A DNA stretch of 64,000 nt, taken from positions 4,774,001-4,838,000 of the forward strand of contig NZ_CP046172.1 in the NCBI RefSeq assembly GCF_011801145.1, read 5' to 3'. A program made the position numbers and the translations under genes. The stretch is from Nocardia arthritidis (GTDB taxonomy: Bacteria; Actinomycetota; Actinomycetes; Mycobacteriales; Mycobacteriaceae). The notes beneath the pieces are model-generated. The model had not been told where the DNA came from. It did no database searches and was given only the letters and a program-made list of their open reading frames with translations. The first letter of the stretch is position 1. Every line of letters starts with the position of its first letter. Below are positions 1,923-17,919 of this stretch, piece by piece.

Positions 1923-3137
1923 ATGGTGAATCGAACATCTGGCAAGAGTGCCGCCGCGGTCGTGAAAGATGAACCGCGCCTACCGCTTTCGGCATTGCTC
2001 GCGTTGACGACAGCCGCCTTCCTCACGGTGCTCACCGAGGCCCTGCCCGCCGGTGTGCTGCCGGATATGAGCGCGGGCCTGCACGTCAGCGAGTCGGCGA
2101 CGGGACAGCTGGTCACCGTCTACGCGATCGGGACGGCGCTGACGACGATTCCGCTGTCCATCGCGACGGCGGCGTGGCGGCGCAAGCGCCTGCTGCTGAC
2201 CGGCGTGATCGGGTTCCTGGTGGCGAATACCGTTACGGCGGTGTCGCTGAACTACGGGCTGACGCTCGCCGGGCGCTTCGTCGCCGGTATCGCGGCGGGC
2301 GTCGTGTGGGGGCTGCTGGCCGGGTATGCCATCCGGTTGACTCCGGAGGCCTTGCGGGGCAAGGGAATCGCGATCGTCATGGCCGGAATTCCGCTGGCCC
2401 TTTCCCTGGGCATCCCGGCGGGCACCTTCCTGGGTGACGCGGTGGGCTGGCAGATCACCTTCGGTGTGATGTCGGTGCTCGCGGTGCTGCTGGTCGGCTG
2501 GATCATCGTATCCGTCCCGGATTTTCCGGGTCAGCGGGCGGGCAGGATTTCGCTGCTCGCGACCGCGAAGACGCCCGGTGTCGGGCCGGTGCTGTTCGTC
2601 ACCCTGACCTTCGTGCTGGCGCACAACATCCTCTACACCTACGTGGCGACCTTCCTGACGGAAGTCGACCTGGGCGACCGGGTGGACGCGGTGCTGCTGG
2701 TCTTCGGTATCGCCTCGATGGTCAGCATCTGGTTCACCGGCGCGCACATCGATCGGCGGCTGCGCGGATTGACCATCGCCGCAACGATTCTCGTCGCCGT
2801 CGCGGTGGCGGCGCTGGCCGTGCTGTCCGGGAGCGCGGCGCTCGTATTCGTCGCGGCGACGCTGTGGGGACTCGGCTGGGGCGGCGCGCCGACCCTGCTG
2901 CAAACCGCCGTCGCCATCGCCGGCGGCGAGGCCGCCGACACCGCGCAGGCCATGCTGGTCACGCTGTGGAATGTGGCGATGGCGGGCGGCGGCATCGTCG
3001 GCGGTGTGCTGCTGGATCTGTTCGGGCCCCGGGTCTTCCCGTGGAGCGTGCTGATACTGCTCGTCCCGACGCTGGCGGTGGTCGTCGCGGCCCGCGCGCA
3101 CGGGTTCTTGGGACATTCGACCGCGAGCGCCGAATAG
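1923..3137 (+). CDS. MFS exporter (DHA1 / AraJ-Cmx-like)
   Basis: A 404-residue membrane transporter with about 12 predicted helices. The N-terminal stretch LTEALPAGVLPDMSAGL followed by a VTVYAIGTAL helix is typical of the drug:proton antiporter group that includes AraJ and chloramphenicol exporters. The charged loop RRKRLLL after helix 2 matches the MFS signature region. It probably exports a small hydrophobic compound or sugar. No clear Shine-Dalgarno site precedes ATG 1923; an in-frame GTG at 1962 is an alternative start. The perfect palindrome just upstream suggests repressor control. The next gene is convergent. Confidence 0.85.
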   Translation: MVNRTSGKSAAAVVKDEPRLPLSALLALTTAAFLTVLTEALPAGVLPDMSAGLHVSESATGQLVTVYAIGTALTTIPLSIATAAWRRKRLLLTGVIGFLVANTVTAVSLNYGLTLAGRFVAGIAAGVVWGLLAGYAIRLTPEALRGKGIAIVMAGIPLALSLGIPAGTFLGDAVGWQITFGVMSVLAVLLVGWIIVSVPDFPGQRAGRISLLATAKTPGVGPVLFVTLTFVLAHNILYTYVATFLTEVDLGDRVDAVLLVFGIASMVSIWFTGAHIDRRLRGLTIAATILVAVAVAALAVLSGSAALVFVAATLWGLGWGGAPTLLQTAVAIAGGEAADTAQAMLVTLWNVAMAGGGIVGGVLLDLFGPRVFPWSVLILLVPTLAVVVAARAHGFLGHSTASAE

Positions 3138-3265: not shown

Positions 3266-4126
3266 TCAGTAACCGCTGGCCGCGTTGATCCGCGACGGCC
3301 AGTAACGCTCGCCCGGGGCCGGTTCGTATGCGGCCCAGCGCGCCGGATTTCCCTTCGGATGATCGCCGAGCACGGTGACGCGCCTGCCGACGCGACGTTC
3401 GGCGTAATCGTTGACCGCGTAATGCTGGGTCACCCGGTTGTCCCAGATCGCCACCGCGCCGGGCCGCCAGCGAAAACGGCAGCAGAATTGCGGACTCTCC
3501 GAGAATTCGATCAACTGCTGCAGCAGCGCATCGCTTTCGTTACGGCTCAATTGCGGAATATGCGATGTGAACAATCGATTGGCGTACAGCGAGCGCCGCC
3601 CGGTTTCCGGATGCTCCCGGACCAGTGGATGTTCGGCCGAGGAGGAGTATCCGGTGGCCGGTACGGTGACCTGATGGACCGCCGTCAAACCGTCCACCAA
3701 TTCCCGAATGGGTGTGGAAAGTTGCTCGTAGACGAGATATTGATTGGTCCACATGGTGTCGCCGCCGCGGGGCGGGCAGGTGATCAACTGCAGAATCGAG
3801 ACGATCGGCGGGCTCGGTTGGAAGGTCATATCGGTATGCCAGCAGTCGACTTTCCCGCCCTTATCCGATTCGATGAGGACCACCTCCGGGTGATCGTCGA
3901 GTTTCGGCAGGTAGGGATGTATTTCGACCTCGCCGAAGCGGCGCCCGAACGCGACGTGCGCCGCCGGCGGCAAATCACCCTGATCCGGAAAGAACAGCAC
4001 CAGATGTTCCAGTAGCAACGCGTGCACGGTGGCGAATTCCGAATCGGTGATGGTGGCCAGATCGATCCCTCTGACCTCGGCGCCCAGCGCGCCGGATACG
4101 GGCGTTACATCGATATCCGCGGTCAC
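3266..4126 (-). CDS. TauD/TfdA-family 2-oxoglutarate Fe(II) dioxygenase
   Basis: A 286-residue non-haem iron dioxygenase that would couple 2-oxoglutarate decarboxylation to substrate oxidation. The iron ligands are visible as WHTD (His97, Asp99) and the distal His in VTQHYAVND (His235), followed by basic residues for 2-oxoglutarate (RRVGRR, about 244-249). I chose GTG 4126 because AGAGGAGG lies 4-5 bases upstream and the product then begins at [11 protein letters not shown], the usual family start; the longer frame to 4198 adds 24 atypical residues. It diverges from the terpenoid operon across an AT-rich 234-base gap, so it may be a tailoring oxygenase of that pathway, but it could equally be an independent sulfonate or lipid oxygenase. 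Confidence 0.85.
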
Positions 4127-4197
4127 GTTGCCTCCTCTGCCGCATTGTTCTCGATATGGTACGGCCGCCACCGCGGGCCATCGGCTCGAATCGGACA

Positions 4198-4262
4198 TAA
4201 TTTTCCCATCATTTTCCTGCCGTCATATAATTGATCGATAATTTTCGTGTCAATTGTGACGG
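4198..4262. promoter_or_regulatory. AT-rich divergent promoter region of the terpenoid cluster
   Basis: The gap between the divergent dioxygenase and aminotransferase genes holds a conspicuously AT-rich stretch in an otherwise very GC-rich window. It includes a small inverted repeat, GTCA-ATTG-TGAC, at 4249-4260. Both transcription units probably start here. No convincing -35/-10 pair could be assigned. Confidence 0.4.
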
Positions 4263-4360
4263 TTTCGATCGTGTGGGTCATCGGCCGGTCATAAACTTCG
4301 ATCCGGAAGCTTTGCGGCGGGAAACGGGAATGCCGCGGGCGGGACGGAGGGCAGCCGATT

Positions 4361-5386
4361 ATGCCGATCTCGCGAAATTCGGATGATTACCACGACTTAT
4401 CGATGAATACCGTGGCTTTTCGCCCGGCCGGCTCGGTGGTCGCCGCGGTGGCGCGGACGGCCGCATATGCGAACGAATATCCGGATATGGCGGCCGCCGA
4501 ACTCACCGCGGCGGTGGCGCGGTGGCTCGGCGTGCCCAGCGGATACCTGACGTTCGGGCCCGGTTCGGCGGCGCTGTGCCAGATCGCGCTGCTCGCCTGG
4601 TGCGGACCCGGCGCCGAGGTCGTTCACCAGTGGCCGTCGTTCGAGGCGTATCCGATGATGATCGAGCAGGTGCACGCGACATCGGTGGCCGTCGCACTGC
4701 GGGACACCGAGACCGATATCGGCGATATCGCCGCCGCGGTGACCGACCGGACCCGAATGGTGTTGCTGTGCAATCCGAACAACCCGACCGGCGCGGTGCT
4801 GCGGCAGGACCGCATCCGGCGGCTGCTGAGCCTGCTGCCCGAACACGTCACGGTGCTCGTCGACGAGGCATACCGCGATTTCGTCCTGTCGCCCGGGTAT
4901 CGCGACGCCGTCGAGATCGTCGCCGACGATCCGAGAGTCGCTGTGCTACGGACGTTTTCGAAATCCTTCGGGCTGGCCGGACTGCGCGTCGGCTACCTGA
5001 TCGCGCAGCCGGTGCTGACGGCGAAGCTGGCGGCGGCGCGGATGTTCTTCGCGGTGAGCGCGCCCGCCCAGGCCGCGGCGGTGGCCGCGGTCGAGCGGGT
5101 GGCGGAGATGCGGGAGCGCTGCGCCGCCGTCGGCGCCGAACGGGCCAGGCTGCGTGGGCTGCTGCGTGAGCAGGGGTGGGCGGTTCCGTTGAGCCACGCC
5201 AACTTCCTGTGGCTGCCCACCCCGCAGGCCACCGAATTCGCCGGTCACTGCGCGGAATACGGTGTCGCGGTGCGGGCCTGGCCGGGACGCGGGGTGCGGG
5301 TCACCGTCGGCGCTCCCGCATCGAATGACGTATTCGCCGGGCTCGCAGCTGAATTCATCGCACTACCGCGGGCGGTGGCGCGATGA
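4361..5386 (+). CDS. HisC-like PLP-dependent aminotransferase (class I/II), first gene of terpenoid operon
   Basis: A 341-residue fold-type I aminotransferase of the histidinol-phosphate aminotransferase group. NPNNPTG is at 138-144, DEAYRDF begins at Asp169, the PLP lysine is Lys201 in FSKSFGLAG, and LRVGYL supplies the carboxylate-binding Arg209. It would move an amino group between an amino acid and an oxo acid or aldehyde. A GGAGGG site precedes ATG 4361. Its stop overlaps the next start (ATGA), so it is translated with the prenyl synthase. This suggests an amino-acid-derived or amino-bearing building block in the product rather than histidine synthesis. Codon 13 is a rare TTA. Confidence 0.85.
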   Translation: MPISRNSDDYHDLSMNTVAFRPAGSVVAAVARTAAYANEYPDMAAAELTAAVARWLGVPSGYLTFGPGSAALCQIALLAWCGPGAEVVHQWPSFEAYPMMIEQVHATSVAVALRDTETDIGDIAAAVTDRTRMVLLCNPNNPTGAVLRQDRIRRLLSLLPEHVTVLVDEAYRDFVLSPGYRDAVEIVADDPRVAVLRTFSKSFGLAGLRVGYLIAQPVLTAKLAAARMFFAVSAPAQAAAVAAVERVAEMRERCAAVGAERARLRGLLREQGWAVPLSHANFLWLPTPQATEFAGHCAEYGVAVRAWPGRGVRVTVGAPASNDVFAGLAAEFIALPRAVAR

Positions 5387-6372
5387 CATCGGGACAGATC
5401 ACCCCGCCCGCCGTCGACACCGTCGCCACGCTGCTGCGTGAACTCGTCGCGGCCTGGCCCGCCGGGCGCGGCCGGCTTTCGGATATGGCCCGCTACGCCG
5501 TGCTGCCCGCGGGCAAACTGCTGCGCCCCATCCTGGTGCTGGAGTCGGCGCGGGCGGTGGGCGCCGATCCCGTCGCGCTCGCGCCGGTCGCCGTCGCACT
5601 CGAATTCCTGCACGTGGCAACGCTTGTGCACGACGACATCATCGACGGCGACCAGCTGCGCCGCGGCAGGCCGACCGTACATGCCAGATACGGAAAGGGC
5701 GAGGCGATCGTGGCCGGCGACGCCCTGCTGCTGGGCACCTTCCTGGCCATCGCGGAGGGCGCTGAGAGCTTCCCGCCCGCCGCGGTGCTGAAGGCGGTGC
5801 GCATCGTCGCCGCCGCGGGCCTGCGACTGTGCGACGGCCAGGTCACCGAGGCCGAACTGACCGGCGATCTCGATTGCGGCATAACGCGATACCGCGCCAT
5901 GGCGGCGGCCAAGACCGGCGCGCTGTTCGAGGCGGCCTGCGGCGCTGGCGCGATACTCGGTGGCGGCAGCGAGGCACAGCAGGCCGCGCTGCGCGCCTAC
6001 GCCGCACATCTCGGCTGCGCCTTCCAGATGCGCGACGACCTGCTGCCGTACCTGGCCGACGACGCGCGGGTCGGGAAGAGCCGGATGAGCGATATCGCCA
6101 ACCGCAGACCCACCTTCCCGGTACTCGTCGCCGTCGAACTCGCCGACACCGAACAGCGTGCACGGCTGGAACTGATACTGAGCGGGCGGCTTTCGCCGGA
6201 TATCGCGCACATGCTGCTCGGCGAGGTGTTCACCGAAACCGGTGCGCTCACCGTCGCGGCCGAGCGGGTCGCCGCCGAGGCCGCCGCCGCGCGTGACTGC
6301 CTGCACGGCTTCGGCGCCCGCGGCGACCGGCTGGCCGCCCTCGCCGACGACACCATCGAGCGCACATGGTGA
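5383..6372 (+). CDS. Polyprenyl diphosphate synthase (IspB-like, long-chain type)
   Basis: A 329-residue trans-isoprenyl diphosphate synthase that condenses isopentenyl diphosphate onto an allylic primer. The first Asp-rich motif is DDIID at 84-88 within FLHVATLVHDDIIDGDQLRR, very like IspB-type enzymes. Ala and Thr at the -5 and -4 positions, in place of the aromatic residue of short-chain synthases, suggest C20 or longer. The second Asp-rich motif reads DDLLP (218-222), so its third Asp is Pro. The start overlaps the aminotransferase stop and the stop overlaps the UbiA start. It probably supplies the prenyl chain for the following UbiA protein. Confidence 0.88.
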   Translation: MTSGQITPPAVDTVATLLRELVAAWPAGRGRLSDMARYAVLPAGKLLRPILVLESARAVGADPVALAPVAVALEFLHVATLVHDDIIDGDQLRRGRPTVHARYGKGEAIVAGDALLLGTFLAIAEGAESFPPAAVLKAVRIVAAAGLRLCDGQVTEAELTGDLDCGITRYRAMAAAKTGALFEAACGAGAILGGGSEAQQAALRAYAAHLGCAFQMRDDLLPYLADDARVGKSRMSDIANRRPTFPVLVAVELADTEQRARLELILSGRLSPDIAHMLLGEVFTETGALTVAAERVAAEAAAARDCLHGFGARGDRLAALADDTIERTW

Positions 6373-7331
6373 GCATCGGCTCGCCCCGGAACTGGCTGGC
6401 GCACCTGGAAACCTGCCGGCCGTACACGCTGGCCTACCCGGGCCTGACCGGACTGGCGGGCGCCGCGCTGGCCGGTGCGCCGACGCCGGCGCAGTGGGTG
6501 ACGGCCTGGCTGGCGCCGACCCTGGTGTGGACCGGCGGCCTGTACCTGGGCGACTACTTCGATCGAGAGTTGGACGGTGTCGGTAAGCCGCATCGGCCGA
6601 TACCGTCCGGGCGGCTGGCGCCGCGCACCGCGGTGCTCACCGGAATATGTTGCGTGGCAGCGGCATTCGCCGCATCCGCACTGGTCGAGCCGCGGGCCGT
6701 CGCGATCGCGCTGGCCGGGGCGGCCGGGACCGTCGGCTACAGCAGAGTCCTGAAACGGCATGGGATTCTGGGGAATCTGGCCCGCGGAGCGCTCACCGGA
6801 CTGGTGCTCGTCTTCGCGGCGACCCTGGTACACGGGTGGCCCGCACCGCTCGTCCTGGGTTGGGCCGCCGTGTTCTGCCTGCAGGACACCGGATCCAATC
6901 TCGTCGGCACCGTTCGCGATATCGCTGGCGATCGAGCCTGCGGCTACCGCACCGTCTCGGTGGTATACGGCGGGGCGTTCGCGAACCGCTGCGCGGCAGC
7001 CTGTTTCGCGGCGGCGATGCTGGGGGCGCTCGCGCTGCACGGGATCTCGGCCGACCTCGGATCCGGGCTGCTGCTGGCCGCGATCTGCCTCGGGGTGCGC
7101 GCGTACGGGCCCGTACTCGGCTCCGGCCCGATCGATCCGCGAAAGGCGTTGCGGACCCACGAGATTCTTGTCGCCGAACGACTGGTGCTGGCCGCCGCGG
7201 TGGCCGCGAACGGCCTCGGCGGCCCGGCCACGCTGGGAATACTGGCCGCGGCGCTGGCGATCTCGCTGTCGACACAGCTGCTGCTGCGCGGACGTCACGA
7301 ATTCGGCAACGGCACAGTGGAGCTCGCATGA
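6366..7331 (+). CDS. UbiA-family membrane prenyltransferase
   Basis: A 321-residue integral membrane protein with about eight or nine hydrophobic helices. The first prenyl-diphosphate site reads GDYFDRELD (62-70), the family NDxxDxxxD with Asn replaced by Gly; the second is DIAGD (185-189). It would transfer the chain made by the preceding gene to an aromatic or other acceptor, although some UbiA proteins act as terpene cyclases. The start overlaps the synthase by seven bases and the stop overlaps the cyclase start (ATGA). No gene for an aromatic acceptor was found in the cluster. Confidence 0.88.
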   Translation: MVSIGSPRNWLAHLETCRPYTLAYPGLTGLAGAALAGAPTPAQWVTAWLAPTLVWTGGLYLGDYFDRELDGVGKPHRPIPSGRLAPRTAVLTGICCVAAAFAASALVEPRAVAIALAGAAGTVGYSRVLKRHGILGNLARGALTGLVLVFAATLVHGWPAPLVLGWAAVFCLQDTGSNLVGTVRDIAGDRACGYRTVSVVYGGAFANRCAAACFAAAMLGALALHGISADLGSGLLLAAICLGVRAYGPVLGSGPIDPRKALRTHEILVAERLVLAAAVAANGLGGPATLGILAAALAISLSTQLLLRGRHEFGNGTVELA

Positions 7332-8989
7332 CCGACGCCATCACCGATATCGATTCCGTCGTCGACGCGGGCGCGGCGGCGCTGTTCGCACAGCTGCGGC
7401 CCGACGGATACTTCACATTCGGCTCCGGCGCCGGTGCGACACTGGCCACCGCCGGCGCCACGCTGACACTGCACCTGCACGATCCGGTCGGCGCACGCGA
7501 ATACGTCGGCCGGGGATGCGCGCACCTGGCCGGTGCGCAAAACCCCGACGGCGGTTGGGGTTCGGTGCCCGGTCAGCCCAGCGAGGCGGTCACCACCGCG
7601 ATCGCCGCCGCCGTGCTGCACCTGGTGTCGACCGTCCACTACCGCGACGAAATAGCCTCGGGCCGTGCGGCATTGGCCCGGATGGGTGGCCTGGCGGGAA
7701 TCGCCGACCCGGCACTCGCCGCGGTCTGCGGGCGATTCCACGCGATGGCCGGATGGGTGCCCGAACAGTCGATCCGGGTGCCGCTGTGGGTATTCCTGCT
7801 GCCCGGACTGCGCCGCACCAGGATGTCGTTCCGTTCGGCGATCCTGGCGGCGACGGCGATCGCCCAAGCGCGCGGCAACCCGGCCGGCGGGTTGCGCAGG
7901 ATGGTGGACCGCGCCGCCGAACCGGCCGCACTGCGCCTGCTGTACCAGGTGCACGAGGACGAAGGGCGTACCGGCGAATTCGGCGCCGACGCATGGGCTG
8001 TCGCGATGACCGCCATCCCGCTGATCCGCTCGGGCACGGCGACGGACCTGGTCGCGGCCATGGCCGGATATCTGCGCCGCGCCGTCGCCGCCGACGGTTC
8101 CTGGCCGATCGTCGACATTCGGCTCACCTACACCGGATTCGCCGCCACCGGACTGTGCGACGCCGGGTACGGCGCCGATCCCCGGCTCACCCGCGTCGGG
8201 ACGGCGATCCGGGAAGCGCAACTGACACGGCCGTTCTCGATGCTGGACTGCCCGCCGGGCGGGTGGAGCTATTCGGGTCCGCGCGGCTGGCCGGTAACCC
8301 TGGAATCCGCCGAACTGCTCGCCGCGCTCGCGACACTGCCCGGCGCCGAACGGGATCCGGCACTGGCCGAGGGTCTGCGCTGGCTGGCGGGCCGACAGGA
8401 TCGGCGCGGATCGTGGAGCCTGTGGGTGCGCGATACCGCGCTACCCAACGACGGCCCATGCCCCTACCTCACCGCCCAAGCCGTCGACGCGCTGCTCGAC
8501 GGCGGTGTGCCCGTGGCGCATCGGCGGATCCGGCGCGCGGTGCGCTGGCTCACCGGGCAGCAGCGAGCCGACGGATCGTTCGACGCGCTCTGGTATCGCG
8601 GCGCGACGCCCGGCACCGCCGAGGTGCTCGGCGTGCTGGCGCGAGCCGGGCTGCCCGCAGCCGAACCCGCGGTCCGGCGTGCGACGGATTGGCTGCTGCG
8701 GCACCAACTTCCGGACGGCTCATGGGGTGACGGCGCGGCGGGCAGCGTCGAGGAGACCGCGTGGGCGCTGCGGGGCCTGCTGCGGGCGGGGGTCGCGTCG
8801 GCGGCGGTCGACCGCGCCGCCGACTGGCTCGCCGCGGCGCAACTACCCGATGGGCGATGGCCGGAGGCGCCGGTGAGCGCCTACATCCGGCACTGCGTGC
8901 ACTACCCGAACGGCGCGATCACCGCGGGCCTCGCGCTGCGGGCGCTGGCCGCCTACCGACGCGTAACTCACCAGGGAGCAGCGAAATGA
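7328..8989 (+). CDS. Oxidosqualene/squalene-hopene cyclase-like protein with altered catalytic block
   Basis: A 553-residue protein of the squalene cyclase alpha-barrel family, shorter than usual (about 630-730). QW-type repeats are seen as NPDGGWG near residue 71 and LPDGSWGDG in the last quarter. The segment GGWSYSGPRGWPVTLESAE matches the region that in oxidosqualene cyclases reads GGFSFS...GW.VSDCTAE, but DCTAE is LESAE here (residues 325-329): the catalytic Asp is Leu and the next position is Glu. I start it at ATG 7328, which overlaps the UbiA stop; the frame upstream is only an open shadow. It probably cyclises a prenylated, possibly epoxidised intermediate by an unusual acid, or is catalytically dead. 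Confidence 0.8.
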   Translation: MTDAITDIDSVVDAGAAALFAQLRPDGYFTFGSGAGATLATAGATLTLHLHDPVGAREYVGRGCAHLAGAQNPDGGWGSVPGQPSEAVTTAIAAAVLHLVSTVHYRDEIASGRAALARMGGLAGIADPALAAVCGRFHAMAGWVPEQSIRVPLWVFLLPGLRRTRMSFRSAILAATAIAQARGNPAGGLRRMVDRAAEPAALRLLYQVHEDEGRTGEFGADAWAVAMTAIPLIRSGTATDLVAAMAGYLRRAVAADGSWPIVDIRLTYTGFAATGLCDAGYGADPRLTRVGTAIREAQLTRPFSMLDCPPGGWSYSGPRGWPVTLESAELLAALATLPGAERDPALAEGLRWLAGRQDRRGSWSLWVRDTALPNDGPCPYLTAQAVDALLDGGVPVAHRRIRRAVRWLTGQQRADGSFDALWYRGATPGTAEVLGVLARAGLPAAEPAVRRATDWLLRHQLPDGSWGDGAAGSVEETAWALRGLLRAGVASAAVDRAADWLAAAQLPDGRWPEAPVSAYIRHCVHYPNGAITAGLALRALAAYRRVTHQGAAK

Positions 8990-10260
8990 CAACCTCCGAC
9001 ACCGATGTCGTGGTGTGCGGGGCCGGGGCGGGCGGCCTCGCCGCGGCCTGCGCGCTCGGTGCGCTCGGCCTGCGCGTGCTGGTTATCGAACGACGGCGCG
9101 AACCCGCACGCATCGCCAAAGGTGAACTGTTGCAGCCGAGTTCGATGGCAAGCCTGACGCAGTGGGGTGCCGGGCCACGGCTGTCGCACGGTGGCGGTGT
9201 CTGGATCGACCGGCTCTGCGCGCGCGACCCGGACGGGCGCGCGCTGCTCGAACTCGACTACGGCCGCACGCTCGGCGCGGATCGGCGCATCCTGTCGGCC
9301 GACTACCCGGCCATCCTGACCGCCCTCGCCGACAGCCTGCCCGCGAATGTCGAACTGCGCCGCGGCATCCGAGTCGAGGAATTGGTGCGGAACCCGGCCG
9401 GGCGGGTCCGGGGCGTCGTCGTGACCGACGGTGGGCGGTCGACGGAAACGGTTTCGGCCGAATTGGTGGTCGCCGCGGACGGTTCCGCGTCCGCGCTGCG
9501 CGCCGCCGCGGGCATCGCCCTGCCGCGCGCGCAATACCCGCACCGTCTGGTGTCGTTCGAGATACCGGGCAGACACGGCGCCGAATTGACCGCCTATGTG
9601 ACGGATCGCGGTCTGCGGCTGGCCTATCCGCTGCCGCACGCCCGGACCCGCCTATACCTGCAGGCGGGCGCCGACGAGCTACGCGGCCTGGACGACAACG
9701 GGATTCGCCGCTGGGCCGCGAACACGGTCGCGGAGGTGGGACCGCTGTCCGGGCTCGGCGAGCTGCTGCTCGCGCGCGATACCCGGCGCCAGATCTTCGG
9801 CGTCCCACGCTATCTGGTCGATCGGCTGTCGACACCGGGTATGGCGCTGCTCGGCGAGTCGGCGCACGCCGTGCATCCGATGGCCGCGCAGGGGATGAAC
9901 TCGGCCATCGCCGACGCGGTCGAATTGACCGCACAACTGCGGGACGCCGGCGAATGGTCCAGCGCGGCGGTCGATTCCGCGTTGCGCGGCTACCACCGGG
10001 TGCGGTTGCCGCAGCTGCGGCACGTCGCGACCGTCAGCCACAACGCCGCCAGGATGCTCACCGCCGTCTCACCGATGGGCCGAATGCTCGGCAGACGGCT
10101 GATGCGCGGCACCGCGGGCAACCCGCGGCTGCTCGCGGCCACCTGCCGCAATATCGCCGGAATCGAGCCGCGGCCGCTGCGTCCGCTGGACCGGCTCTAC
10201 CAACTCGGTCTGCTTCGCGACCCGAATTCGACTGCGCGGCAGGAGGAGTCATGCAAGTAA
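8986..10260 (+). CDS. FAD-dependent monooxygenase / epoxidase
   Basis: A 424-residue group A flavin monooxygenase. The dinucleotide fold begins VVVCGAGAGGLAAA (GAGAGG 12-17) and ends with the ribose-binding acid in VIERR. The second FAD block reads LLGESAHAVHPMAAQGMNSA (Glu in place of the usual Asp). In meroterpenoid pathways this enzyme class epoxidises the terminal alkene of the prenyl chain before cyclisation, and the position right after the cyclase fits that role. The start overlaps the cyclase stop (ATGA). Hydroxylation of an aromatic ring is the alternative. Confidence 0.85.
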   Translation: MTTSDTDVVVCGAGAGGLAAACALGALGLRVLVIERRREPARIAKGELLQPSSMASLTQWGAGPRLSHGGGVWIDRLCARDPDGRALLELDYGRTLGADRRILSADYPAILTALADSLPANVELRRGIRVEELVRNPAGRVRGVVVTDGGRSTETVSAELVVAADGSASALRAAAGIALPRAQYPHRLVSFEIPGRHGAELTAYVTDRGLRLAYPLPHARTRLYLQAGADELRGLDDNGIRRWAANTVAEVGPLSGLGELLLARDTRRQIFGVPRYLVDRLSTPGMALLGESAHAVHPMAAQGMNSAIADAVELTAQLRDAGEWSSAAVDSALRGYHRVRLPQLRHVATVSHNAARMLTAVSPMGRMLGRRLMRGTAGNPRLLAATCRNIAGIEPRPLRPLDRLYQLGLLRDPNSTARQEESCK

Positions 10261-11459
10261 GGGAGCCGTGGACGTTACCGATCATCCGTACCGATCTATT
10301 CGACCTGCCCGTCGCGTACCGGGAGATGTTCGCGGCGGGCCCGATCCAGGCGGCCCGGTTACCGAACGGCCGGACCGTGTGGGTCCTGACGGGGCACAGC
10401 GAGATTCGCGGCCTGCTCACCGATCCGCGCACCACCGCCGACCGCGCACATCCGAACTTTCCCTCGTTCGACGCGTCCGGCGGCACCGCGACGGCGCTGA
10501 TCGCGGGCTCGGATCCCTTTCTGGTGTCGATGGATCCGCCCGCGCACACCCACGCCCGCAACCAGCTCAAACGGGAGTTCGAGCAGCGACGCATCCGGGA
10601 ACTGGCGCCGGTGGTCCAGGAGATCATCGATACCACGCTGACCCGATTGCTCTCGGGACCGAAACCGGCGGATCTGGTGTCGGAGTTCGCGCTCCGGGTG
10701 CCGTCGCTGGTGATCTGCCGGCTGCTCGGCGTTCCGTACACCGATCACGATTTCTTCGAATCCCGGACGCCCGCGCTGATCGACAGCACCGCATCGCCGC
10801 AGCGATGCCGCGCGGCCTTCACGGAAATCCATGGCTACCTCACCGACCTGATCGCCCGGCGCGAGGCGCGGCCGACGGACGACATCATCGGCAACTATGT
10901 GCGCGCGACCCGCGCCGGCGGCGCCTACCGGCGGGAAACCCTTGTCTCGCATGCCTTCCTGCTGTTGATCGCCGGGCACGAGACCACCGCCAATCAGATC
11001 GCGCTCAGCGTGCTCGCCTTGCTGCGACGGCCGGAACTGTCGGCGCGACTGCGCGCGGAACCCGCTCTGGTGCCCCGGGCCGTCGAGGAAATGCTGCGGT
11101 ATTTCACCATCGTCGATTCGGTCTCGCGGGTGGCGACGGCGGATATCACGATCGGCGCGAACACCATCCGGGCCGGAGACGGAATCGTCATGGTGTGCAG
11201 CCTCGCCAACCGCGACCCCGACGTCTTCGACGAACCCGACGACCTCGAGTTCGCCCGCGGCGACCGGCGGCACCTGTCCTTCGGATTCGGTCCGCACCAA
11301 TGCCTCGGACAGGGTTTGGCCCGGCTGGAACTGGAATTGGCGCTGCGATCGGTGATTACGCGCCTACCCGGTCTCGCGCTGGCGGTACCGGCCGGGCACC
11401 TGGAGTACAAGGGCACCACCTCGGCCTTCGGCGTGAAACGCCTGCCGGTCGTCTGGTGA
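10251..11459 (+). CDS. Cytochrome P450
   Basis: A 402-residue soluble bacterial P450. Visible landmarks are the I-helix oxygen-activating AGHETT, the K-helix EEMLRY (ExxR) and the haem loop FGFGPHQCLG with Cys351. It would oxidise the terpenoid scaffold, using external ferredoxin and reductase; none is encoded nearby. ATG 10251 lies inside the preceding gene's end and has AGGAGG just upstream. Codons 9 and 37 are TTA, rare in this GC-rich operon. Confidence 0.92.
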   Translation: MQVREPWTLPIIRTDLFDLPVAYREMFAAGPIQAARLPNGRTVWVLTGHSEIRGLLTDPRTTADRAHPNFPSFDASGGTATALIAGSDPFLVSMDPPAHTHARNQLKREFEQRRIRELAPVVQEIIDTTLTRLLSGPKPADLVSEFALRVPSLVICRLLGVPYTDHDFFESRTPALIDSTASPQRCRAAFTEIHGYLTDLIARREARPTDDIIGNYVRATRAGGAYRRETLVSHAFLLLIAGHETTANQIALSVLALLRRPELSARLRAEPALVPRAVEEMLRYFTIVDSVSRVATADITIGANTIRAGDGIVMVCSLANRDPDVFDEPDDLEFARGDRRHLSFGFGPHQCLGQGLARLELELALRSVITRLPGLALAVPAGHLEYKGTTSAFGVKRLPVVW

Positions 11460-11493
11460 CAGCCGCAATTCGTTGCGCGAAAGGAGATTCGGC

Positions 11494-12756
11494 GTGCCCG
11501 ACGAGCTGATCAGGGAACTGGACCCCAGCGAGGCGCGGTTCGTGCCGCACGGCGCCTACAGCGGCCATACCGTGCTGGTGACGGGCGAACTCGACGCGAC
11601 GGCGCTCGGTGCGGCATTCGCGGCGCTCCAGCGGAGCTACCCGGTGCTGACCTGCCGCATCGTCGAGGAATCCGACGGCAGGTGCCTGCTGGTCCGGTCG
11701 AACGCAAGCCCGCCGGTCGGCCCCTGGTTCGGCGACGGCGACCCCGGGCGATTGCGGGACCCGGCCCAACCGCTCGATCCCGCAACGCAACTCGCCTACC
11801 TGGATGTGGTCGCGGCGCCGGGGTGCGCCCGCGTCACCTGGTACATCCACCACGCCGTCGCCGACGGCAGCCACGCGATCGAACTGTTCGCCCGATTCTG
11901 GGACTTCTACACCGACTGCCTGACGGCCACCGTGCCGGAACCCGTGCCGCACGACTATCCGCGATCGCTCGAATGGTATTCCGCCACATACGGATTCCGT
12001 CGCGGGCCGCTGTCCGGGCTCGAGGATGTCACCGTACCGCTGTCGGCAGAGCCGAAACCGGACCCGGCGGCCGCCACCGCAATCCTGGGCGGTGGCCTCC
12101 TCCGGCCCGCGCGCAGCACGTTGGACGCCGAGACGACAGGCCGGCTCATCGCCCTGGCCCGGCGCACGGGCCTGACGGTCAACAGCGTGGTCACCGGGGT
12201 GCTGCTGCGGGCGTTCGGCGCACGGACGAGCGCAGACCCGAGACCGGTGCGCGCGCTGTACGCGGTGGATCTGCGCCGCCACCTGGACCCGCAGGTGCCC
12301 GCCACCGCGGGCACGAATCTCGCCGCTTCGGCGTGCTTCGCCGCCGATATGGAAACATGCGGCGGGACAATGGAACTCGCCCGGCGGATCGCCGGCCGCT
12401 TGCGCCGCGACCTGGCGCAGGGCGTGTTGCAGCAATCGGTGTGGCACTATCCGGACTTCTACGGCGACCGCCGGACCCGGTCGGTGGCTGGTCATCTCGG
12501 GCTCACCAATTGCGGTGTCATCCCGAGGTTCCGGACGCCGCCCGGGGCGGCGATCACCGATTACGAGATCGTGCACCTGCTGGCCCATCCCCGGCCGTCG
12601 ACCGAGGTGACCTCGCAGACCGGGCTTTTCATGCTCTACACCTTCGCGGGGCGCCTCACCATCGGATACGTCGGTGCGGTCGATGCGGACGTCTTGTTGG
12701 CGGTCATCCGAGACGAGCTGACGGCAATATCCGCCGAAGAGCCGGTGATCCGATGA
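11494..12756 (+). CDS. PapA5-like acyltransferase (condensation-domain superfamily)
   Basis: A 420-residue CoA- or carrier-dependent acyltransferase. The active-site motif HHxxxDG is seen as HHAVADG (His119, His120, Asp124, Gly125). The order and length match phthiocerol/PapA5-type and stand-alone condensation proteins. I chose GTG 11494, seven bases after AAAGGAG, rather than the upstream TTG. It would esterify or amidate a hydroxyl or amine on the terpenoid. The gap to the P450 is 34 bases and its stop overlaps the glycosyltransferase start. Confidence 0.8.
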   Translation: MPDELIRELDPSEARFVPHGAYSGHTVLVTGELDATALGAAFAALQRSYPVLTCRIVEESDGRCLLVRSNASPPVGPWFGDGDPGRLRDPAQPLDPATQLAYLDVVAAPGCARVTWYIHHAVADGSHAIELFARFWDFYTDCLTATVPEPVPHDYPRSLEWYSATYGFRRGPLSGLEDVTVPLSAEPKPDPAAATAILGGGLLRPARSTLDAETTGRLIALARRTGLTVNSVVTGVLLRAFGARTSADPRPVRALYAVDLRRHLDPQVPATAGTNLAASACFAADMETCGGTMELARRIAGRLRRDLAQGVLQQSVWHYPDFYGDRRTRSVAGHLGLTNCGVIPRFRTPPGAAITDYEIVHLLAHPRPSTEVTSQTGLFMLYTFAGRLTIGYVGAVDADVLLAVIRDELTAISAEEPVIR

Positions 12757-13688
12757 GCTGGTCGGCGCAATCCTCGTACGGCGTGGTGATCGTCGCCTGG
12801 TGTCCCTCGGAAGACAATATCGCGCACGCGATTTCGCTCACCGAGACCGGCGGGCAGGTCTGTCTCGTCGACAACTCCCCGCAACCCGAACCCTGGTACG
12901 CACGCGTGCGCGACGCCGGAATCTTGTTGGTGGTCAACCGAAACCGCGGCGGGCTCGGCGGCGGTTTCAATCGCGGGATCGATGCGCTGTTCGGCCGCGG
13001 TGCCGACGTCGTCTTCATCCTCGACCAAGATTCCGAGGTGGACGGCGGCTACTTCGCCGATATGCTCGCCACTCCGGTACCGGCGGAATCCGGCCGCCCA
13101 TATCTGGTGGGGCCGGTACCGTACGACGTCGAGACCGGCGTCCTGCTGCTGGGACATCGGGTGGCCGGCGCGGAACAGATTGCGGCACTGGCGAACAACG
13201 GAACCATCGAGGTCGATTTCCTGGTGTCGTCCGGGACCATGATCACCCGGCGGGCGTGGCAGGCGATCGGGCCGTTCGACGAACGGTACGTCATCGATTA
13301 TCTCGATTGGGAATTCTGTCACCGAGCGGCGCGGCGCGGGGTCGGCCTCATCGTCAACGCGGACGTGCTGATGCGGCACCGGATCGGCGATATCCGGTTG
13401 CGGACCGTGCTGGGCATGCGGATGCTGGTCTTCGGCTACGCCCCGATCAGGCGCTACTACCAGACCCGCAACTGCGTCCACTTCACGACGCGGCATGCAC
13501 GCGAACGGCGAAGCCTGCTGGCGCTCAACGCATTTCTGGTGCGCAACATACTGTCGGTGCTGCTGTTCGAGCCGGACAAGGCGCACAAGCTGCGCGCCAT
13601 GGCCGCCGGGCTCGCCGACGGCGTCGTCGGCCGCCTCGGCCATCTCGCCGAAACCCGAACCCAACTCGCCGAAACGTCGCGTCGGTGA
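12753..13688 (+). CDS. GT2-family glycosyltransferase (rhamnosyltransferase-like)
   Basis: A 311-residue GT-A fold enzyme. The N-terminal VVIVAW strand, the NRNRGGLGGGFNRG block and the metal-binding DQDS (Asp91, Asp93) match bacterial rhamnosyltransferases of the WbbL group. The C-terminal half has the usual ERYVIDYLDWEFC acceptor-site segment (WEFC corresponding to the common DxEW/DWEF pattern). It would add a deoxy-sugar or other sugar to the product. ATG 12753 overlaps the acyltransferase stop. No sugar-nucleotide synthesis genes accompany it, so the donor must come from primary metabolism. Confidence 0.85.
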   Translation: MSWSAQSSYGVVIVAWCPSEDNIAHAISLTETGGQVCLVDNSPQPEPWYARVRDAGILLVVNRNRGGLGGGFNRGIDALFGRGADVVFILDQDSEVDGGYFADMLATPVPAESGRPYLVGPVPYDVETGVLLLGHRVAGAEQIAALANNGTIEVDFLVSSGTMITRRAWQAIGPFDERYVIDYLDWEFCHRAARRGVGLIVNADVLMRHRIGDIRLRTVLGMRMLVFGYAPIRRYYQTRNCVHFTTRHARERRSLLALNAFLVRNILSVLLFEPDKAHKLRAMAAGLADGVVGRLGHLAETRTQLAETSRR

Positions 13689-13714
13689 CCCGAGTCGACC
13701 CAGGAGTGTGCACA

Positions 13715-14728
13715 ATGCCCGACACCACAAGCGATCCCGCCGCCGAACTCGCCCGGCTCACCGACCTGGCCACCCCGTACGCGGTGCGCGCCGCGGTCAC
13801 CCTCGGCCTGCCGGAACTGCTCGAAGCGGGTCCGGCGAGCGCGGCGCAGCTGGCGAAAGCGACCGGCGCGGACCAGGATTCGCTGGACCGCCTGCTGCGG
13901 TACCTCGTCGCGCACGACGTCTTCGCGGCCGCCGCGCCGGATCGATATGCGTTGAACGACATCTCGCGTCAACTGGTCGGCCCGGACGGCGCGCCCCAGC
14001 GCGCGTGGCTGAACCTGTCCGGGGCGGGCGCCCGCATGGATGCCGGATACGCCGGCCTTGCCGACGCCGTCCGCAAAGGCTCCGAGGGCTACAGCTCCGT
14101 TCACGGCCTGCCGCTCTGGGCGGATCTGGCCGAAAGACCGGACCTGCGAAGCGGATTCGATGACCTGATGGGCGCCGACACCGCCCGCATCGCCCACCTG
14201 CTCGCCACCGAATACGACTGGACCGGGCTCGGGCACCTCATCGACGTCGGCGGCGGCATCGGCATCCTGCTCGGCGAAATACTCACTACCCGAGCGCATC
14301 TCACCGGCGCGGTATTCGACCTGCCACCCGCCACCGCGGCGGCCAGGCGCCGCTTCGCCGCCGCCGGACTCGGCGGCCGCGCCGCCGCCATCGACGGCAG
14401 CTTCTTCGACCTGATCCCGCCCGGCGCCGACGCCTACCTCGTCTCCCGGGTGCTCACCGACTGGAACGACGAAGCGGCACAGCGGATCCTCGCCAACTGC
14501 GTGACCGCCGCCCGCCCCGGCGGCCGCGTCCTCATCGTCGAAATGCTGCCCGACGACGTCATCGCGGACCCCCGCTCCGCGTACGATCTGCAGATGCTCG
14601 TCGTGGTCGGCGGCAAACTGCGCTCCACCGCGGAATTCACCCGCCTCGCCGAACGCGCCGGGGCCGTCGTGGCCGGGGTCCGCCGCTGGGCGTGCGGGCT
14701 CACCGTGCTCGACTGCCGCCCCAGCTGA
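13715..14728 (+). CDS. SAM-dependent O-methyltransferase
   Basis: A 337-residue methyltransferase of the two-domain group that includes hydroxyneurosporene and anthracycline methyltransferases. An N-terminal dimerisation/winged-helix domain precedes the SAM site IDVGGGIG (DVGGGIG 177-183) with the acidic end of strand 2 in VFDLP. CAGGAG lies just upstream of ATG 13715, and the gap after the glycosyltransferase is 26 bases, so it is the last gene of the operon. It probably methylates a hydroxyl of the terpenoid or its sugar or aromatic part. Confidence 0.87.
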   Translation: MPDTTSDPAAELARLTDLATPYAVRAAVTLGLPELLEAGPASAAQLAKATGADQDSLDRLLRYLVAHDVFAAAAPDRYALNDISRQLVGPDGAPQRAWLNLSGAGARMDAGYAGLADAVRKGSEGYSSVHGLPLWADLAERPDLRSGFDDLMGADTARIAHLLATEYDWTGLGHLIDVGGGIGILLGEILTTRAHLTGAVFDLPPATAAARRRFAAAGLGGRAAAIDGSFFDLIPPGADAYLVSRVLTDWNDEAAQRILANCVTAARPGGRVLIVEMLPDDVIADPRSAYDLQMLVVVGGKLRSTAEFTRLAERAGAVVAGVRRWACGLTVLDCRPS

Positions 14729-16061: not shown

Positions 16062-17171
16062 TCAGCCGGGTTGGAAGAATGCGAGCATTCGCCGGCTGGC
16101 GTCCGGCGACATCAGGACTTCCTGCATGCGTGCCGACATCCGGGCGGCGGTGCCGGTGCGGTCGAACATCTCGCGTTCGTATTCTTCGATGGCGGTGGGG
16201 AAGTCGTGCGGGTGCGCGGCCAGGGCGAGGCCGAGCACGGCACCGTCGAGCAGCGCCATATTGGCGCCCTCGCCCACCGGCGGCATCAGGTGCGCGGCAT
16301 CGCCGACCAGCGTGACGCCCGGATTCGACGGCCAGGTGAGGCCGACCGGGAGCGTGGTGATCGACCGCGGCACGACCGCGTCGTCGCAGGCCGCGATGAG
16401 CGCGGTGAACCGCGGGTGCCAACCGGGGAGCAGTTCGATCAGCCGCGCCCGGGCGGCGGCCGGGTCGTCGAACGGGATACCGCTGGTGGCGAACCAGTCC
16501 TCGGCGGTGTTGTAGAAGCTGAGGCCGATGCGGACGCGGCCGTCGCCGTTGCGCTGCGCCGCCAGGGACAATCCGTTGCCGAGCACCCAGTAGTTGCCGC
16601 GCCCGACCATCGCCGCGAGGTCCGGATGTGTGCGGTCGATATCGGGAATGCCGAGTTCGACGACATTCTGGCCGATATGGGCCGGGCGGGCGTCGGTGAG
16701 CAGCGCGCGGACCCTGGACTGTGCGCCGTCGGCGCCGATCAGCAGGTCATATGTCGCGGTGCCGCCGTCGGCGAAGCGCAGCAGGCCGTCGTCGGCGGAT
16801 TCGAACGCGCGCCCCCAGCGCACCATGTCCGCGGGCAGCGAATCCAGCAGCAGGTTCCGCAGGTCGGCGCGGTCGACCTCGGGTCGCAGGAGTGGGGCCT
16901 CATCGGGCGTGTCCTCCTGGTGCAGCAGCGTGCCGTCCGGCTCCAGCAGGCGCATATCCTGCCCTTCACCGCGGGCGATCGCGTGGAACCCGTCGATCAG
17001 GCCGGCCTCGCGCAGGGCCCGCTGCCCGGAATGGATGTCGAGCATGCCGCCCTGACCGCGCGCGCCGCGCGAGGACTCACGCTCGTACACGACGGCATCG
17101 ATGCCGTGCACGTGCAACACCCTGGCGAGGGCCAAGCCGCCCAATCCGGCTCCGACAATGACGATGGTCAT
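16062..17171 (-). CDS. Tet(X)-like FAD-dependent monooxygenase
   Basis: A 369-residue group A flavin monooxygenase. The FAD fold starts MTIVIVGAGLGGLALA at the N-terminus, and the second FAD block reads GDAAHLMPPVGEGANMA. The segments GGMLDIHSGQRALREAGL and PEVDRADLRNLLLDSLP closely follow the order of Tet(X)-type enzymes. ATG 17171 is preferred over ATG 17177 because AAGGG lies six bases before it. The gene diverges from a TetR regulator with a clear palindromic operator between them, a layout seen with inducible xenobiotic-inactivating enzymes. The substrate could be a tetracycline, a rifamycin or another aromatic; sequence alone does not say. Confidence 0.85.
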   Translation of the reverse strand: MTIVIVGAGLGGLALARVLHVHGIDAVVYERESSRGARGQGGMLDIHSGQRALREAGLIDGFHAIARGEGQDMRLLEPDGTLLHQEDTPDEAPLLRPEVDRADLRNLLLDSLPADMVRWGRAFESADDGLLRFADGGTATYDLLIGADGAQSRVRALLTDARPAHIGQNVVELGIPDIDRTHPDLAAMVGRGNYWVLGNGLSLAAQRNGDGRVRIGLSFYNTAEDWFATSGIPFDDPAAARARLIELLPGWHPRFTALIAACDDAVVPRSITTLPVGLTWPSNPGVTLVGDAAHLMPPVGEGANMALLDGAVLGLALAAHPHDFPTAIEEYEREMFDRTGTAARMSARMQEVLMSPDASRRMLAFFQPG

Positions 17172-17181
17172 GCTCATCCCT

Positions 17182-17230
17182 TCGATACACTGAACTACTC
17201 GATACACTGTATCGAAGCATTCGGTGTATC
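17182..17230. promoter_or_regulatory. TetR operators between the flavin monooxygenase and its regulator
   Basis: The divergent gap holds a perfect inverted repeat, TCGATACA-C-TGTATCGA (17199-17215), flanked by one half-site in each orientation: TCGATACACTG at 17182-17192 and CGGTGTATCG at 17221-17230. This spacing between two divergent starts is typical of a TetR protein controlling both genes. Confidence 0.75.
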
Positions 17231-17238
17231 GTCGGGGC

Positions 17239-17919
17239 ATGTTGGTGTGGGAGCGGCCGGAGCCGCCGGATCGGCCGGCGCCGGCGCCATTAAGTCGAGA
17301 ACGGATCGTGGGAGCGGCGATCCGGCTGGCGGATGCGGACGGGCTGGCGGCGGTATCGCTACGCAAGGTCGCCGCCGCCCTGGACGTCGGGCCGATGCGG
17401 CTGTACGGCTACATCGCCACCAAAGAGGAATTGCTCGACCTGATGGTCGACGCGGTCTACGCCGAGACCCGGCCGAGCGGAGACGGTTGGCGAGAAGTGC
17501 TGCGATCCATGGCCGAAACCACCCGGCAGGCCGCTCACCGGCACGAATGGCTTGCCGACCTGATCGGCGGGCGGCCGCAGCTCGGCCCGAACGCGCTGGC
17601 CAGAGGAGAGGCCGTGGTGGCGGCGATGAGCGATATCGACGTGGACAGCGTCATGCCGGTGATCGACGCGGTCAACGCGTACGTGATCGGCGCGGTGCGC
17701 CGGGAGATCACCGAACGGCGCGCCGAGCGCACCACCGGTATGGACAAGACCCAGTGGCAGGCCGCCTTCGGCCCCTATCTGGTGCGGACCTTCGCGACCG
17801 GCCGATACCCCACGCTGGCCACGGTCATCCGCGACGCCGCCCACCTCGACGCCGACCAAACCTTCCACACCGGCCTCGACTTCCTCCTCGACGGCATCCA
17901 AGCCCGCATTCACGGCTGA
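17239..17919 (+). CDS. TetR-family transcriptional regulator (TetR_C-type)
   Basis: A 226-residue repressor. The N-terminal helix-turn-helix is seen in GLAAVSLRKVAAALDVG followed by LYGYIATKEELL, typical of TetR itself and related drug-sensing members. The C-terminal ligand domain is of usual length. ATG 17239 is the likely start; a GTG at 17224 would add five residues but lies inside the operator half-site. It should repress itself and the divergent Tet(X)-like monooxygenase through the adjacent palindrome. Confidence 0.85.
   Translation: MLVWERPEPPDRPAPAPLSRERIVGAAIRLADADGLAAVSLRKVAAALDVGPMRLYGYIATKEELLDLMVDAVYAETRPSGDGWREVLRSMAETTRQAAHRHEWLADLIGGRPQLGPNALARGEAVVAAMSDIDVDSVMPVIDAVNAYVIGAVRREITERRAERTTGMDKTQWQAAFGPYLVRTFATGRYPTLATVIRDAAHLDADQTFHTGLDFLLDGIQARIHG

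Follow-up and report, generated by a model that had tools for sequence, protein, structure and literature searches.

Which natural product does a compact terpenoid operon of Nocardia arthritidis encode, and is the pathway new or a variant of a known one? We address this question for a stretch of 64,000 nucleotides (the window), which covers positions 4,774,001–4,838,000 of contig NZ_CP046172.1 in the single-contig 10.01 Mb genome GCF_011801145.1. Compared with the brasilicardin cluster, to which it is closely related, the operon in the window has a changed slot for acyl decoration; it also belongs to a wide family of actinobacterial clusters. From its sequence we consider it likely that it encodes a brasilicardin-type diterpenoid pathway, in which a PapA5-like acyltransferase adds a different acyl group.

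Layout of the operon

The operon comprises nine co-directional, mostly overlapping genes (4361–14728, plus strand), from which a dioxygenase gene diverges (3266–4198, minus strand). All ten frames are present as the initial annotation had described them. Following the dioxygenase, the order is aminotransferase, geranylgeranyl diphosphate (GGPP) synthase, UbiA prenyltransferase, cyclase, flavin adenine dinucleotide (FAD) enzyme, cytochrome P450, PapA5-like acyltransferase (PapA), family-2 glycosyltransferase (GT2) and O-methyltransferase. The eight junctions consist of four ATGA overlaps of four bases, one GTGA overlap, overlaps of 7 and 10 bases and a 34-base gap, in line with the earlier description of mostly ATGA overlaps; this set assumes the starts 10251 for the P450 and 11494 for PapA, and the GTGA count the start 13685 for the O-methyltransferase. 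Nine of the ten proteins score above the curated cut-off of their Pfam family, which confirms the earlier family assignments for these nine, while that of the GT2, below both its Pfam and its NCBIfam cut-off, is weaker.

The brasilicardin cluster of Nocardia terpenica IFM 0406 (Bra-BGC, BGC0000632) is described with bra0 diverging from bra1–bra11, where bra1–6 form the core, bra7–9 are presumably responsible for the synthesis and attachment of 3-hydroxybenzoate, bra10 presumably attaches L-rhamnose, and bra0 and bra11 provide methoxylation; bra12 is an essential SARP-like regulator (PMC7837296). The divergent bra0 gene is reported to encode a dioxygenase with a part in forming the C16 methoxy group. 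The window likewise has a divergent dioxygenase and a one-way operon, and its order fits the one given in print: bra0, bra1–6, a PapA gene replacing bra7–9, bra10 and bra11, with bra1–6 matched by family and order, not enzyme by enzyme. The families for the core, the methoxylation and the rhamnosylation are all present. Unlike in Bra-BGC, no 3-hydroxybenzoate synthase or adenylating ligase lies between the P450 and GT2 genes, where the PapA gene stands alone. The window also differs in that no SARP-type (BTAD) domain is found within 20 kb of the operon. A cluster-situated regulator of the bra12 kind was therefore rejected, the nearest BTAD domain being at 36103–36531.

The close resemblance to a characterised cluster that would refute the initial annotation is in large part there, leaving aside the acyl-decoration genes and with two proteins compared by sequence. 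The initial annotation had considered the operon probably undescribed and its gene combination foreign to any characterised cluster. Neither view is supported, given the published Bra-BGC layout, a cyclase at 71% identity, an aminotransferase explained by the amino-acid side chain of brasilicardin, and a 9-of-13-gene Nocardia cluster in a 2025 survey.

The cyclase

The cyclase (7328–8989, plus strand) was searched against 5.8 billion proteins. It is 71% identical over 95% to B1Q2P4 (P0003), deposited as ‘Diterpene cyclase’ of Nocardia brasiliensis. Above this entry among the listed matches stand a 95% sibling from an unclassified Nocardia and a 71% match in Nocardia sp. NPDC052566 (P0002), and the reverse search with P0003 as the query recovers the cyclase of the window genome at 72%. 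Since N. terpenica IFM 0406, which produces brasilicardin, used to be named N. brasiliensis IFM 0406 (PMC7837296), B1Q2P4 is, by name and organism, very probably the brasilicardin cyclase, an enzyme described as a type II cyclase (PMC6902898).

The AlphaFold model of the window cyclase (mean predicted local distance difference test score 92.6) has squalene-hopene cyclase (SHC) 3sqc as its top PDB match, with a template-modelling score of 0.82 (0.75 for human oxidosqualene cyclase, OSC), and the protein carries the N- and C-terminal SHC domains. A pattern search found no DxDD motif in it. In the alignment with SHC, the DVDD stretch, which we take to be Asp374–Asp377, is opposite Val-Thr-Leu325-Glu326 (VTLE) of the window cyclase; the OSC counterpart of this catalytic acid motif is DCTAE. 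The block PVTLESAE is invariant in the window cyclase and 17 homologues, including B1Q2P4, chosen by hand from 120 listed. Glu326 or Glu329 would be the obvious candidate for the catalytic acid.

A scan of named genomes with the cyclase alignment yielded 18 cyclase-anchored loci (L021–L038), none of them from N. terpenica. Because the search patterns contained GWPVTLES, the conservation of the motif among these loci is partly due to selection. Two cyclases from other genomes of the genus depart from TLESAE at this position: that of locus L043, found by protein search, reads TLETGE, and the more distant one of locus L044 reads TGNTGD.

We suggest that the enzyme opens an epoxide. Olefin protonation through DxDD is less likely, as the motif is absent and an epoxidase-like FAD gene lies beside the cyclase gene in 16 of the 18 loci; one of the two loci without a match ends at a contig edge. 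The DxDD-less clade provides a tractable case for studying how epoxide opening by the SHC fold could proceed without the canonical aspartate.

The sugar and the acyl slot

The GT2 (12753–13688, plus strand; TIGR01556, 1.5e-47, under the curated cut-off) is a probable rhamnosyltransferase and the presumed counterpart of bra10. Only four of its 20 matches exceed 50% identity: the sibling (97%), N. terpenica P0206 (62%), NPDC052566 P0207 (60%) and one further protein (55%). In the sibling, the cyclase and the GT2 are both on contigs of 235,723 bases. The gene rmlD, for dTDP-L-rhamnose, is present in the window genome.

PapA (11494–12756, plus strand; PF16911, the PapA C-terminal domain, 6.8e-50) occupies the bra7–9 slot as a PapA5-like acyl-CoA O-acyltransferase. 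Its database copy has 420 amino acids, the length given by the start 11494, and a possible start lies upstream at 11473. The motif HHAVADG, of the HHxxxDG type, is at residue 126 of the 11473 frame, and DFGWG was not found in the protein by pattern. Among 84 matches, obtained in a search that scored only candidates sharing most words, the closest relative of nearly full length, PapA itself apart, has 52% identity, and one match reaches 53% over half its length. No N. terpenica name occurs among the 84, and on this ground a close orthology of PapA to any bra protein was rejected. In NPDC052566, a PapA (P0126, 52%) and the GT2 P0207 possibly move together, independently of the terpene core.

Of 148 genomes of the genus searched with the NCBIfam model for the FkbO/Hyg5 chorismatase, 9 gave a match, which passed the curated cut-off in 5; the window genome gave none. 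The Pfam chorismatase N-domain gave no match anywhere, including 14 control genomes, and is hence uninformative. Because the NCBIfam model finds nothing in the window genome, 3-hydroxybenzoate from a chorismatase is not to be expected in this strain, and a cassette for it elsewhere in the genome was rejected; if an acyl group is added at all, it should be another one than in brasilicardin. Judged by its genes, the best prediction for the product is a glycoside resembling brasilicardin that bears a different acyl group or lacks one.

The case of no acyl group deserves to be weighed separately. The operon would then yield a known congener of the brasilicardin-type pathway, a rhamnoside or aglycone, with PapA acting elsewhere or being inactive. 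None of the ten genes was recognised as supplying an acyl group, nothing in the genome matches the chorismatase model, and heterologous expression of the bra genes is reported to yield BraC, BraD and their aglycones. However, the PapA gene lies inside the operon, shares an ATGA overlap with the GT2 gene and keeps the HHxxxDG motif, and we regard an unacylated product as possible, if on the whole unlikely.

Proposed biosynthetic pathway

We infer the chemistry and its order from the gene content, order and motifs, the homology of the cyclase and the GT2, and the missing chorismatase match.

Step 1: GGPP would be made by the trans-polyprenyl diphosphate synthase (5383–6372, plus strand; PF00348, 2.3e-59), for which this chain length is predicted. 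Its first aspartate-rich motif is DDIID; a second DDxxD was not found by pattern, and the position reads DDLLP. The UbiA-family enzyme (6366–7331, plus strand; PF01040, 4.4e-30) may then join GGPP to a C3 acceptor at the keto-acid level. Both of its aspartate-rich motifs are present, GDYFDRELD and DIAGD, with Gly in the former presumably replacing the usual Asn. The formula of brasilicardin A leaves a C23 aglycone skeleton, a C20 prenyl group plus a C3 unit, which suits the joining of GGPP and a C3 keto acid by UbiA, followed by transamination.

Step 2: The FAD monooxygenase (8986–10260, plus strand; PF01494, FAD_binding_3, 1.2e-27; PF08491, 8.4e-7), which is UbiH/squalene-epoxidase-like, is predicted to epoxidise the terminal olefin. 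The motifs GAGAGG and GESAH were found in it by pattern, the latter in place of GD(A/S)AH, which was not. The atypical type II cyclase, counterpart of the brasilicardin cyclase that we assume to be labelled Bra4, would open the epoxide and close three rings, leaving a ring-A hydroxyl.

Step 3: The HisC-like (class I/II) aminotransferase (4361–5386, plus strand; PF00155, 3e-52) would convert the keto acid to the alpha-amino acid of the head group. It contains FSKSFGLAG by pattern, presumably the motif of the lysine that binds pyridoxal phosphate. The presence of this gene is explained by brasilicardin, which bears an amino-acid side chain. The P450 (10251–11459, plus strand; PF00067, 5.9e-27; haem motif FGFGPHQCLG) probably adds a ring hydroxyl.

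Step 4: The TauD/TfdA-type Fe(II)/2-oxoglutarate dioxygenase (PF02668, 2.4e-62), the counterpart of bra0 for C16 oxidation before O-methylation, would hydroxylate the position beside the amino acid, and the O-methyltransferase (13685–14728, plus strand; PF00891, 3.4e-41; alternative start 13715; bra11 counterpart), with the motifs DVGGGIG and HTD by pattern, would methylate it. The GT2 would attach L-rhamnose. Finally, the PapA5-like enzyme would attach another acyl group in place of 3-hydroxybenzoyl, probably from the general acyl-CoA pool.

The initial annotation had proposed prenylation, epoxidation and cyclisation, with primary metabolism supplying a small acceptor; this scheme agrees with the gene families and with the precedent of brasilicardin. 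The region between the dioxygenase and aminotransferase genes (4199–4360 by the gene coordinates) is the presumed promoter region. Its counterpart in N. terpenica, between bra0 and bra1, has been termed a regulatory hot-spot.

Several points weigh against assigning a brasilicardin-type pathway with an altered acyl group. The sequence comparison with N. terpenica proteins covers the cyclase and the GT2, the other orthologies following from family, order and the published summary. P0206 is an N. terpenica GT2 whose place in the bra cluster is presumed. The window GT2 scores 21.5 bits against a cut-off of 23.3 for Pfam Glycos_transf_2 and 162.2 against 200.55 for the NCBIfam rhamnosyltransferase model. 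The cyclase P0002 of NPDC052566 is on a contig of 1,028,182 bases, and P0207 and P0126 are on another of 1,809,490 bases; being on different contigs, cyclase and GT2 need not be neighbours in that strain. PapA might still be distantly related to bra9, the absence of a chorismatase was read from one model, and the acyl group is predicted from a single gene of putative specificity.

A pathway of another kind altogether would be a new aromatic meroterpenoid pathway, with UbiA prenylating an aromatic acceptor from primary metabolism. The set of UbiA, FAD epoxidase and cyclase is common meroterpenoid logic, and several models of aromatic and lipid prenyltransferases match UbiA, each below its cut-off. 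However, the 71% cyclase identity, the matching layout and an aminotransferase in all 18 loci point to an amino-acid head group, and none of the operon genes was recognised as one for an aromatic acid; we consider an aromatic product very improbable. A role in primary lipid or quinone metabolism (menaquinone, carotenoid or membrane lipid) is scarcely credible, for although the GGPP synthase, UbiA and FAD-enzyme families serve such pathways too, the cyclase is close to a deposited diterpene cyclase and its strong matches (E≤1e-40) are limited to 3 of 150 same-genus genomes, so that the operon does not belong to core metabolism.

Outside the operon, a gene for a major facilitator superfamily (MFS) transporter (1923–3137) is convergent with the dioxygenase gene and possibly encodes a product exporter. 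A frame for an FAD-dependent monooxygenase (16062–17366) diverges from that of a TetR-type regulator (17224–17919), which it overlaps in its longest form; this pair is apparently unrelated to the operon.

A wider actinobacterial family

The 18 loci come from Micromonospora, Saccharothrix, Labedaea, Pseudonocardia and Allokutzneria, and our searches found no characterised product for them. Aminotransferase, GGPP synthase and UbiA genes are present in all 18, the aminotransferase of L022 being cut by the contig end, the methyltransferase in 17, and the dioxygenase and the FAD enzyme in 16 each. Because the core recurs in every locus, the grouping of the operon genes is not a matter of chance. 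The dioxygenase is the more conserved protein (59–69% identity to that of the window), ahead of the cyclase (49–59%), with the aminotransferase at 43–51%. P450 counterparts occur in 16 loci and are only 32–36% identical, and no counterpart of PapA or the GT2 was found within the stretch examined. The gene order differs from that of the window in most of the loci. Hence, we suggest that the amino-acid head end is constant and the ring-A end variable across the family.

Fourteen of the loci (L023, L025–L036 and L038, from Micromonospora, Saccharothrix and Labedaea) form a recurrent cluster with a divergent TauD gene followed by O-methyltransferase, GGPP synthase, UbiA, LESAE cyclase, FAD enzyme and aminotransferase, and with two P450 genes nearby. 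L023 and L026, examined frame by frame, contain an extra frame that resembles a family-1 glycosyltransferase by eye. In L024 the TauD and O-methyltransferase genes are about 6 kb more distant. A Pseudonocardia cluster with weak similarity to the brasilicardin cluster (PMC5183585) and a Micromonospora brasilicardin-like cluster at 23% (PMC8146288) have been noted before.

Within the genus, the deposited cyclase has its three matches at E≤1e-40 in the window genome itself (G000, 72%), G081 (46%) and G022 (34%), so that none of the 150 genomes has a nearer copy than the window genome. The G081 locus (L043) contains the dioxygenase, aminotransferase, synthase, UbiA, cyclase, FAD enzyme and methyltransferase at 46–64% and a P450 at 36%. 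In the G022 locus (L044, 5491–14882) the cyclase is 33% identical to that of the window, and synthase, UbiA and FAD-enzyme genes are present; no match to the aminotransferase, dioxygenase or methyltransferase was found within 20 kb. A frame at 3301–4272 of L044 resembles a mevalonate kinase by eye.

A bolder reading, which we put forward as rather doubtful, is that of a lipidated brasilicardin, in which PapA would attach a fatty acyl group, perhaps a branched one, to the rhamnose, at the place that 3-hydroxybenzoate takes in N. terpenica. The operon would then represent a wide and mostly uncharacterised actinobacterial class of amino-acid-headed terpenoids with a constant head end (aminotransferase, dioxygenase and methyltransferase), a changing ring-A decoration, and epoxide-opening cyclases with the acid moved by one residue, from DxDD to LESAE.

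Comparison with known systems

Brasilicardin A is described as a potent immunosuppressant that is available in small amounts only, and the limited structure–activity data are said to imply that its sugar end and its amino-acid end both matter. A natural variant differing mainly in the acyl-decoration genes is a source of an enzyme for altering the sugar end, and it also tests which parts of the pathway are fixed. Knowing that an aminotransferase, a dioxygenase and a methyltransferase usually accompany the cyclase across actinobacteria makes it easier to predict which head group an unassigned cluster would build.

The nearest published system may be the locus itself. A survey of 263 genomes reports the brasilicardin cluster in eight N. 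terpenica genomes and in one of N. arthritidis (AUSMDU0001271 as written), the latter with 9 of the 13 bra genes in unchanged order and no regulator (PMC12153302, mBio 2025). The passage on this cluster does not list the nine genes and names no acyltransferase; bra0–6 together with bra10 and bra11 would number exactly nine. Because strong cyclase matches are so rare in the genus, the window locus may be the same as, or sister to, that of AUSMDU0001271.

A more distant likeness is to the phenalinolactone and tiancilactone pathways of Streptomyces. These follow the same logic of prenylation, epoxidation and cyclisation with an atypical type II diterpene synthase, a likeness drawn by description, and their products carry a gamma-butyrolactone rather than the amino acid that is predicted for the product of the window operon.

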